DNA from: an uncultured Sphingomonadaceae bacterium
Lineage (GTDB): Bacteria; Pseudomonadota; Alphaproteobacteria; Sphingomonadales; Sphingomonadaceae
Assembly: GCA_947499255.1 (NCBI GenBank)
Contig: CANMNF010000002.1
Location: forward strand, 818,430-882,429
DNA length: 64,000 bases
Reading direction: 5' to 3'
The position numbers and the translations under genes are program-made. The notes beneath the pieces are model-generated. The model was not told the origin of the DNA. It searched no databases and saw only the letters and a list, made by a program, of their open reading frames with translations. Below are positions 7,791-21,189 of the stretch, in pieces (the first letter of the stretch is position 1; the number at the start of each line of letters is the position of its first letter).

Positions 7791-8851
7791 ACAAACTGCC
7801 CGATCGTAAAGGCAATTGCCATCGATATGGGCAGCGTCGCGACCCATGATAGCAGCACGTTGCGCACCACCGATATATCGAGCGTGCCTGCCGCTCCGCC
7901 TGTGCCGATGATCGATCCGACAGAGACATGCGTGGTGGAAACGGGCATGCCCAAACGGCTGGCGAACAGGACCAGCCCGGCTGTGATCAGATTGGCTGAC
8001 ACGCCTTGCCCGGTATCCAGACGATTGATTTTCTTGCTCATCGTTTCTGCCACGCGGCGCGATAACAGCCAGCCGCCAAGTCCCATCGCCACCGTTGCCA
8101 CAAGCGCTGATCCTATCCCATCGAGCAATTGCGAGGCGATCAGCAATGCGGCGAGCTTGGGCGTATCATTGACCCCTCTGGCAAAGCAGATCGCGCTGGC
8201 GGAAAGCAGATGCACACCATCCATAAACCGGCTCGGCGTAGGGGTGCTGACAGTACCCATCGCGCCTAGGGAGGGAGCATTCGCCGCCTTGTTTTCGCGC
8301 CGCGCGCGGATGATGCGATAAGCGATATAGCCAAGGGTGAAGGAGATGATCGGGCTGGTCAAAAGCGGCAGCACAAAACCAGAGCCCAGATTGGCAAGGT
8401 TGATCGGGGTCTCGCTCAAAGCCAGCCCTGCGCCCACCAATCCGCCCACCAGCGCATGGGTGGTGGAAATGGGAAAGCCCAGCCGCGTTGCCAGCATCAC
8501 CGTGGTCGCCGCGCCGCCTGCCACGGCCAACGCAAATGCCGGCGTGTTGGCCAAGCCGTCATCCACCAAGCCTTTACCCGAGAACTGCTGCACCAGACTT
8601 TCTGCAATCAGGATCGATGCAATTCCCCCCAGAACGGTGGCCACGGTGGCAAGCAAAAGCGCGCGTTTAAAAGGCAGCGTTTCACTGCCCCAAACCGTTG
8701 CGAACCCTTTGAAATTGTCATTGGCGCCGTTGCTAAAAGCAAGGAAGATAGCCGCAAATGCGAGCATGGCGATAATAAGAATGGTTTTCTCCCAAGAGGC
8801 GCGATTGCGGGTTTGTACCGCGGTGATGATGCACGGTATTCGCGCTGCCAT
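7787..8851 (-). CDS. Inorganic phosphate transporter, PiT family
   Basis: A roughly 354-residue membrane protein of the PiT/Pit low-affinity phosphate symporters. The two inverted-repeat signature motifs are present: SNGANDNFKGFA in the first half and ARGVNDTPKLAALL in the second. The two repeats also each carry a PISTTHA/PVSTTHV element (GFPISTTHALVGGLVG and GMPVSTTHVSVGSIIG), a hallmark of the family. About ten transmembrane segments are visible. The start is uncertain: ATG 8851 gives a 28-residue extension, while ATG 8767 would begin directly in the first helix. The stop shares a TTAA with the nadB stop (4-bp convergent overlap). No phoU-like gene is beside it. Confidence 0.9.
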   Translation of the reverse strand: MAARIPCIITAVQTRNRASWEKTILIIAMLAFAAIFLAFSNGANDNFKGFATVWGSETLPFKRALLLATVATVLGGIASILIAESLVQQFSGKGLVDDGLANTPAFALAVAGGAATTVMLATRLGFPISTTHALVGGLVGAGLALSETPINLANLGSGFVLPLLTSPIISFTLGYIAYRIIRARRENKAANAPSLGAMGTVSTPTPSRFMDGVHLLSASAICFARGVNDTPKLAALLIASQLLDGIGSALVATVAMGLGGWLLSRRVAETMSKKINRLDTGQGVSANLITAGLVLFASRLGMPVSTTHVSVGSIIGTGGAAGTLDISVVRNVLLSWVATLPISMAIAFTIGQFV

Positions 8852-8898
8852 CCTGCTTGGTTACGCGTGATCGGCGCGATTGGTACGCAAAGCGCGCT

Positions 8899-20139: not shown

Positions 20140-20258
20140 TCTTGGCTTTCCTTCAAGGTCCGGGGCATGGTGTGGGTAAGAATATATCGGGTTGTTCGAG
20201 TAACTCTTAACAAGGATTGCGCGAAAGACCTGTTGGTTGCAACCAAAGGAGATCAACC

Positions 20259-20585
20259 ATGCCACACAACAATCTCGCCACTTTCCTCAAAGTCGCCGGC
20301 GGCCTCGCGCTCGCCACACCTGCATTGGCAGGCTGTGGTGCTTGTGGAGCCTGCTGTGCAGCAGCGGGCGCATGTTCCGCCTATTCATCAGGAGCCGCGC
20401 TTGGCTGCGGTGCTGCACCAGGCTGCTGCGCTGCATCAGCTGACAAAGCTGGGTGCTGCGCTGCATCAGCGGCCAAAACCGGGTGCTGCGCTGCATCGGC
20501 GGCCAAGACCGGATGCTGTGCTGCTGCTGCCGGGTGCTGCGCTGCTGCTGAAGAGAAGAAGGGCTGCTGTGCCGCTGCCGGTTAA
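20259..20585 (+). CDS. Cysteine-repeat exported peptide/lipoprotein
   Basis: A 108-residue protein starting nine bases after AAAGGAGA. Residues 1-25 form a weakly basic hydrophobic export region ending PALAGC, which reads as a lipobox (LAG-C) or a signal peptidase I site. From residue 26 it is almost only Gly, Ala, Ser, Lys and 18 cysteines: CGACGACC, then a GCCAASAAKT decapeptide repeated at residues 55-90, then GCCAAAEEKKGCC. Seven CC pairs result. The leader plus a repetitive cysteine-rich tail recalls metal-binding RiPP precursors such as the bufferins/HvfA, but no MNIO (DUF692) gene is beside it. Its end overlaps the start of the next gene by 17 bases. Metal sequestration is inference. 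Confidence 0.75.
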   Translation: MPHNNLATFLKVAGGLALATPALAGCGACGACCAAAGACSAYSSGAALGCGAAPGCCAASADKAGCCAASAAKTGCCAASAAKTGCCAAAAGCCAAAEEKKGCCAAAG

Positions 20586-21189
20586 TCGGCAGGATCAGAT
20601 CGCCGCTTTGCTCGAGCTGAGCAAGCATATGGCGATGGAGGGCAGGACGCTGATAGAGCGCGTCCTGCCCCAACCACCTGATACCTACACGCAATATGAG
20701 CATTACCCAAAGGGCGATGCAATCGATCCTGATAGCCGCGCGCGTTGGTTCTATCACGCGCATGCTCCCGAAGCACGCGGCATGGATGAACACGGCCATT
20801 TCCACATGTTCCTGCCGTTAAGCGCCTTTGGTGATGAACCAGCTTTGGCCACCCCGCGCAAGGATGGCGCGGCCAAAGTGGTGCATGTCGCAGCCTTGTG
20901 TTTCAATACAGATGGCTTGCCGACCCATTGGATCGCCACCAATCAGTGGGTGACAGAGGAATTCCTCTATCCCGCCGAAGCGATCATCGCACGGTTGGAC
21001 CGTATGCAGATGGAAGGCGCCGGAGTGTCCAAAGGCATTCCTTATATTGGCCAATGGCTAACACTGGCTCTGGCTATTGCGAGGGACGATATCGCAGATA
21101 TGCTGCGCGCCCGCGATGTGGCTTTGAAGAATACAGACTTGCGCGATTATAACGCGGAAATCTTGGCTCAGTGCGATTTCACGATGTGA
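20569..21189 (+). CDS. HGHFH-motif protein coupled to Cys-repeat gene (DUF6969-like?)
   Basis: About 206 residues, soluble. An N-terminal helix (IAALLELSKHMAMEGRTLIERVL) leads to RARWFYHAHAPEARG and DEHGHFHMFLP. The five histidines at about 63, 65, 75, 77 and 79 look like a metal site. Later blocks are KVVHVAALCFNTDGLPTHWIATNQWVTEEFLYPA and a C-terminal helical part. I associate the H-x-HGHFH pattern with the DUF6969 family, but only from memory. The start is inferred: GTG 20569 has AGAAGAAGG upstream and overlaps the cysteine-repeat gene; TTG 20608 and ATG 20629 are alternatives. The overlap implies coupled translation and a shared task, perhaps modifying or metallating the peptide. Confidence 0.65.
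   Translation: MPLPVNRQDQIAALLELSKHMAMEGRTLIERVLPQPPDTYTQYEHYPKGDAIDPDSRARWFYHAHAPEARGMDEHGHFHMFLPLSAFGDEPALATPRKDGAAKVVHVAALCFNTDGLPTHWIATNQWVTEEFLYPAEAIIARLDRMQMEGAGVSKGIPYIGQWLTLALAIARDDIADMLRARDVALKNTDLRDYNAEILAQCDFTM

Follow-up and report, generated by a model that had tools for sequence, protein, structure and literature searches.

Architecture of the locus

The window, i.e. the whole 64,000-nucleotide stretch analysed here (contig CANMNF010000002.1, positions 818,430 to 882,429 of the forward strand), belongs to the genome of an uncultured Sphingomonadaceae bacterium (GCA_947499255.1), hereafter the host. Flanked by PPK2 (minus strand) and an RTX-repeat protein, both assigned with Pfam, two overlapping genes encode a small exported-type cysteine-repeat peptide and a member of DUF6969 (PF22308), a domain of unknown function in Pfam. 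The features of this pair are, in window coordinates:

20200..20225, plus strand: sigma-F-type promoter GTAACT-N16-CGAA, an exact match to GTAACY-N16-CGAA, 33 nt upstream of the peptide ATG
20233..20246, no strand: TTGGTTGCAACCAA, a perfect palindrome of 14 bp lying between the promoter and the Shine-Dalgarno, where transcription of the pair presumably begins (sequence reading)
20245-20251, plus strand: AAAGGAG, Shine-Dalgarno-like, preceding the peptide gene (sequence reading)
20259..20585, plus strand: Cys-repeat peptide gene, exported-type, 108 aa, 18 Cys (ORF reading)
20259..20333, plus strand: conserved leader, residues 1-25, ending in FLKVAGGLALATPALAG immediately before a Cys, with a lipoprotein-like LAGC box by eye (leader profile A3; pN/pS 0.30)
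20334..20582, plus strand: Cys core of GCCAASAAKT-type repeats (ORF reading and Cys-repeat criterion)
20556-20563, plus strand: AAGAAGGG, Shine-Dalgarno-like for DUF6969, within the peptide gene (sequence reading)
20569..21189, plus strand: DUF6969 (PF22308) protein, 206 aa, GTG start (Pfam E 1.5e-49; AlphaFold2 pLDDT 93.5)
20755..20763, plus strand: H63-x-H65 codons, invariant (100% of 176 sequences)
20788..20805, plus strand: E74-H75-G76-H77-F78-H79 codons, of which G76, H77 and H79 are invariant (176-sequence alignment)
20884..20886, plus strand: H106 codon, invariant (100% of 176 sequences)

Recounting in the frame at 20259-20585 (plus strand) agreed with the sequence-only reading, which had described a 108-residue peptide with 18 cysteines and seven CC pairs, and its end does overlap by 17 bases (20569-20585) the 206-residue frame bearing the HAH and EHGHFH motifs. 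A signal-type leader, judged by eye, precedes the Cys-rich core, and the peptide is the single frame of the 64-kb window to pass a fixed Cys-repeat criterion (a start codon followed by a repeat region with a Cys content of 10% or more, in which a Cys-containing 4-mer occurs at least three times). The same reading had envisaged that the Cys frame might be neither conserved nor translated; the pooled pN/pS of the leader (25 codons, seven sequences) is 0.30, indicating purifying selection and thus supporting translation of the peptide. By eye, a lipobox-like L-[AST]-[AG]-C closes the leader in seven of seven sequences. Leader profile, pN/pS and the compared tails together give the peptide family the general layout of RiPP precursors, with a conserved leader and a variable core, and the peptide matches no model of Pfam or NCBIfam.

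The HGHFH protein had been taken for an anonymous partner of the Cys peptide; the partnership stands, as shown below, yet the protein is not anonymous, since it matches PF22308 over nearly its whole length with 168.8 bits (curated cut-off 27). In the openly licensed literature searched, neither DUF6969 nor PF22308 is named. Eight positions (P47, H63, H65, G76, H77, H79, H106 and R182) do not vary among the 176 aligned DUF6969 sequences, and H45, D50, E74, N125 and D183 are each more than 96% conserved. In the AlphaFold2 model (61 sequences; pTM 0.90), successive strands carry H63, E74, H77, H79 and H106, with H65 just past one strand and H45 just ahead of one, a predicted arrangement that would suit a metal site; DUF6969 is a probable metalloprotein. 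Foldseek searches with two models (pLDDT 89.4 and 93.5) against PDB, and with the first of them against BFVD, returned nothing at E ≤ 0.001, giving no enzyme class from structural homologues, while sequence profiles against PDB chains gave 0 matches and, in a second search, six at chance level (E ≥ 0.4). The absence of homologues in these sets makes a novel fold possible for the modelled protein, not proven. No DNA-binding domain was found in DUF6969 with Pfam or NCBIfam.

Association of Cys-repeat proteins with DUF6969

Among 61 related genomes, PF22308 occurs in 11, namely the host, 5 of 36 congeners and 5 of 24 other members of the order. Each of the six loci of the genus has a peptide that shares the leader and runs into the chosen DUF6969 start, and strong leader matches (E ≤ 3e-15 with leader profile A3) and DUF6969 are both present in these 6 genomes and both absent from the other 31 (Fisher 4e-7). 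The next-best A3 matches are found at another place in G022 (2.4e-6) and, weakly (0.002 to 0.006), in three congeners devoid of DUF6969. We considered whether the pair belongs to a larger cluster of conserved genes in the Sphingomonadales and rejected this, the common neighbours there reflecting clade synteny.

For a view outside the genus, named genomes were scanned and the best 80 of 561 loci examined; as their rank depends on likeness to the window, its own type is over-represented. Within these best 80 of 561, DUF6969 is no more than 3 kb away from any of the 65 Cys-repeat frames (65 of 65), which are distributed over 59 loci, and the remaining 868 kb contain none; the binomial probability is 2e-29, to be read with the frames not being fully independent (the peptide of L032 is identical to that of L033, and L006/L018 and L011/L020 each represent a single locus). 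By the same criterion, no frame was found in 16 MNIO loci (167 kb). This criterion skips some real cases, such as L093 recognised by eye, and also counts antisense frames of real ones, so that frames outnumber proteins. A leader whose hydrophobic part contains GGL, followed by a variable core, precedes DUF6969 in 50 of these best 80 of 561 loci; frame or GGL leader is found in 65 of the 80 and neither in 15, including the criterion miss L093. The neighbourhood in other genomes, on which the sequence-only reading had staked the pairing, is therefore borne out both by the co-occurrence in the genus and by the named loci.

A class-level sample of 385 genomes drawn evenly contained DUF6969 in 90 (65 of 276 genera). 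We extracted 93 class loci, with up to 4 kb on each side, from 86 of these 90 genomes, leaving out the host and three genomes with fragments only; the omitted DUF6969 fragments are G234, G174, G119:C44, G137 and G290:C53. Some named loci recur in this sample (L076/L175, L083/L220, L073/L199 and L096/L200). A Cys-repeat frame is present in 45 of the 93 stretches, one or two of them doubtful by eye (e.g. L223), and absent from 48. At the DNA level, a pattern of two NPCAA units was found in 31 of the 385 genomes, 27 of which have DUF6969 (Fisher 4e-15; 4 genomes with the pattern lack DUF6969, 63 of the 90 with DUF6969 lack the pattern and 291 have neither), and the backwards pattern in 0 of 385. 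The repeats lie 2.4 Mb from DUF6969 in G131 and on other contigs in G185, suggesting that the partner may act in trans.

In a phylum-level sample, DUF6969 was detected in 20 of 398 genomes. Outside the Alphaproteobacteria, three loci (L248, L250 and L253) carry NPCAA repeats fused by eye to a cytochrome-c-like half, L259-L261 carry NPCGP peptides and L263 a CGAKCGAK peptide; L251, with its short upstream stretch, showed no repeat. A Burkholderia glumae plasmid (L277) bears a KCGAKCGAK/KCAPKC peptide ahead of DUF6969, and in Sinorhizobium meliloti and Azospirillum ramasamyi, which likewise have plasmid-borne DUF6969, the listed frames of these loci included no clear Cys-repeat gene. Altogether, we regard the pairing of the peptide with DUF6969 as practically beyond doubt. 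The B. glumae locus also lies near ECF sigma/zf-HC2, CcdA and thioredoxin genes and is followed by arsenosugar-type glycosyltransferase genes.

The number of repeats, whose variation the sequence-only reading had proposed as a check, does differ between loci, as does their type. The leader is conserved and the tails are variable (GCCAA, NPCAA, CGAC, KCAPKC and Met/Asp), and cores in the named loci (best 80 of 561) include GCCAA, CAAEEA, NPCAA, NPCSA, KPCAPKGCGA, CGACGAC and APCVKT. Cysteines number from 1 to 21 in the 50 GGL peptides, with poor tails in L020 (4), L018 (5) and L040 (one Cys in the whole peptide), and Met/Asp repeats occur in L018, L019 and L008. Cys chemistry therefore cannot be everything that is conserved, and these five tails, as read from their sequences, argue for a metal-ligand function that would be broader than one Cys reaction. 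L040 combines the same leader and DUF6969 with a Lys/Arg/Glu-rich tail, a composition that suggests a decayed or switched core. In the openly licensed literature searched, NPCAA-type and GCCAASAAK repeat strings were not printed, nothing joined FGE, Cys-rich, copper and RiPP, and nothing relevant connected arsenosugar with Cys-rich.

The repeats are also carried by larger proteins in distant taxa. These comprise cytochrome P460-like proteins (L001, scoring 27.9 against a cut-off of 27, and L168, below it at 26.0), fusions to cytochrome c or SoxA-TsdA-like domains (L091 and L093) and, upstream of DUF6969 in L085 and L090, proteins that join NPCAA/NPCAP repeats to a DSP-PTPase-like domain (PTP-NADK, BLH_phosphatase). 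BLAST clustering joined 31 of the 93 class loci in a repeat-haem family; under a stricter haem-site rule 21 class loci pass, 14 of them with an FGE-like gene, and 26 loci have a member of a cytochrome c family. A protein with an FGE-sulfatase domain, exported by eye, is linked to 28 of the 93 class loci and to 5 of the 80 named ones (best 80 of 561), and GGSW-x3-5-C-x2-C-R is kept in 32 of 33 linked copies across both sets. The host does not have the linked type: its two FGE-domain genes are different ones, the first 28% identical to it and the second EgtB-like by eye.

Promoter and probable metal-stress context

The expected chance frequency of GTAACY-N16-CGAA is 0.08 per window on average, a value to be read with Y having been admitted post hoc because the window site carries T where the published consensus has C. 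The site thus differs by a single substitution (GTAACT) from GTAACC-N16-CGAA, the Caulobacter sigma-F consensus according to the accessible portions of PMC3511200. As far as the available parts of PMC3511200 and PMC8224329 describe it, YedY and two DUF2282-DUF692-DUF2063 operons, of which one also has DoxX, are among the members of the Caulobacter SigF regulon, which responds to Cr and Cd; it is also induced by Cu, a sigF::Tn5 mutant being Cu-sensitive (PMC8224329, in part). The host encodes NrsF, with a sigma-70 region-2 protein (Sigma70_r2) directly upstream and the motif before that, so that both marks of a SigF (ECF) regulon were found, the motif upstream of the pair and sigF-nrsF in the genome.

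Among 54 peptide upstreams (50 GGL loci, the window and L007-L009), 16 hold the motif with the N16 spacer and 0-1 with each spacer of 10-15 or 17-22, and 200 Markov shuffles yielded none. MNIO loci, as a positive control, show it in 7 of 16. The motif is absent from 38 of the 54, some of which have other conserved elements. Outside these upstreams the motif is rare: on both strands of the 80 named loci (2.72 Mb; best 80 of 561) there are 30 sites, and 12 of the 50 GGL upstreams in this set hold one. Genome-wide, the host shows no enrichment, with 12 sites versus 28 for the backwards control, which calls for caution over single sites. The link of the pair to metals, drawn initially from the peptide and its neighbour, now has the support of a sigma-F-type promoter, and we consider a metal-stress role of the pair to be likely.

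A second site in the window (8839-8864, minus strand) is an exact GTAACC-N16-CGAA, 71 nt before a PHO4-like frame whose match to the phosphate transporter is below cut-off and covers a 90-aa stretch. Elsewhere in the host, sigma-F-type sites (L265, L269 and L271) precede sigF-nrsF, a methyltransferase (its likeness to ArsM judged only by eye) and a DUF1223 protein, forming a candidate small metal-stress regulon. Other elements recur in subsets of loci: a conserved inverted repeat, approximately AGACTTGCC...GG(C/A)AAGTCT, stands about 25-75 nt before the peptide ATG and ahead of the Shine-Dalgarno in L023-L025 and L028-L030, an operator or 5' UTR hairpin rather than a sigma-F motif, and a conserved block, approximately GCCACATTCTTGCCGTGATTCGGGGCGC, lies upstream of the peptide in Erythrobacter (L042, L045, L049 and L053-L059).

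Proposed function and comparison with known systems

We propose that the pair is a peptide system for metal stress that resembles bufferins, with DUF6969 taking the place of MNIO and its partner, a chain of reasoning that, taken whole, we hold to be evenly poised. The two genes would form a translationally coupled unit within a sigma-F-type metal-stress response. The precursor, in which a Sec/lipoprotein-type leader is joined to a repetitive Cys core, would be exported and would bind soft metal ions. DUF6969 has no export signal by eye and so would meet the precursor in the cytosol; its metal site would be built from H63, H65, H77, H79 and H106, perhaps with H45, E74 and D50, and it would change core Cys residues prior to export, filling as an unrelated protein the role that MNIO and DUF2063 have in bufferins. 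We infer that the two genes are coupled, that the peptide is exported, that both products bind metal and that the modification is enzymatic. In its most specific form, which we advance tentatively and a little short of an even judgement, DUF6969 would be a new class of RiPP maturase. This metalloenzyme, with a fold that has no match, would oxidise or cyclise the Cys of exported repeat proteins (GCCAA, CNPC, CGAC, KCAPKC) without MNIO and would serve small metal-buffering peptides as well as cytochrome-like fusions.

Whether DUF6969 would modify Cys covalently, rather than load or chaperone the peptide, is about an even call. As a metal-loading or holding chaperone, it would keep the Cys precursor reduced or supply it with metal ahead of export and leave it covalently unchanged; we judge this unlikely. 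The tails, some with Met/Asp or few Cys, are too different for one strict chemistry, and a His-rich site could hold metal without catalysis, but the invariant R182 and the near-invariant E74, D50, N125 and D183, together with five His, look like an active site, and in bufferins, the closest functional analogue, the downstream gene encodes an enzyme (PMC12452194, in its accessible portions). Enzymatic modification would be likelier than metal loading. That DUF6969 instead senses or regulates the metal state of the peptide, with no part in maturation, is improbable: overlapping genes in the genus and a metal-stress promoter would fit, but the protein has no DNA-binding domain in Pfam or NCBIfam, and the distant repeats of G131 and G185 suit an enzyme acting in trans.

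The peptide might also be an ordinary bufferin with its MNIO encoded elsewhere, as MNIO occurs somewhere in 30 of 43 searchable genomes (45 asked) of the named loci. This we consider very improbable. The sequence-only reading had noted no MNIO gene, and indeed PF05114 is absent from the 2.96-Mb host genome, as is DUF2063 (Caulobacter control positive); with a home-made profile from 15 MNIOs, none was detected within 97 DUF6969 loci (L001-L097, 2.6 to 20.6 kb each); among the 61 relatives, MNIO occurs in 0 of 11 genomes with DUF6969 versus 14 of 50 others (Fisher p 0.054); and the peptide is outside the Pfam and NCBIfam models. Mutual exclusion of MNIO and DUF6969 was nevertheless rejected, the 30 of 43 genomes indicating that the two systems are not exclusive. 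An apparent MNIO at L040 was a coincidence of identical coordinates on another contig, L040 itself holding DUF6969 there. An accidental overlap, with an unrelated job for DUF6969, could appeal to the 48 class loci devoid of a nearby repeat frame, but has next to no probability and is contradicted by the 65 of 65 frames (best 80 of 561 loci, frames not fully independent), the perfect co-occurrence with strong leader matches in the genus and the recurrence of the pairing with unrelated repeat types.

The bufferin-like reading proposes a role for DUF6969, which 90 of the 385 sampled class genomes carry, and connects this uncharacterised domain with a large group of exported Cys-repeat proteins undescribed in the literature searched. 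The pair may represent an unrecognised bacterial route to metal-binding peptides, independent of known enzymes and spread across the Pseudomonadota. If so, bacteria would have evolved at least twice, under the same metal-stress sigma factor, a system that combines a leader and Cys core with a dedicated metalloprotein in the cytosol, and MNIO-based genome mining would overlook one branch.

Metallothioneins are, like the peptide, small, Cys-rich and repetitive; the peptide differs from them by its exported-type leader, its dedicated partner gene and its lack of a family match in Pfam and NCBIfam. With the Caulobacter SigF regulon, as far as described in the accessible parts of PMC3511200 and PMC8224329, the locus shares the promoter type, the sigF-nrsF pair and a small protein first in the operon, which there is a DUF2282 protein heading DUF2282-DUF692-DUF2063(-DoxX) and here the peptide followed by DUF6969. 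Compared with bufferins, the host has neither MNIO nor DUF2063, the peptide falls outside Pfam and NCBIfam precursor models, and the partner is unrelated by Pfam and has no PDB match, so that the pair is not a bufferin by the tested definition, though bufferin-like in its working. Indeed, the available portions of PMC12452194 describe bufferins (Buf1 DUF2282, Buf2, Buf_EGKCG/oxazolin) that share with the pair a Sec-type leader and Cys core, a dedicated partner gene directly downstream, a sigma-F-type promoter, a metal-stress setting and lipoprotein-type variants. They also report fusions of bufferin, cytochrome c and FGE-sulfatase, FGE being a cuproenzyme, and the links of DUF6969 loci to cytochrome c and FGE-sulfatase thus give the two systems parallel accessory parts.
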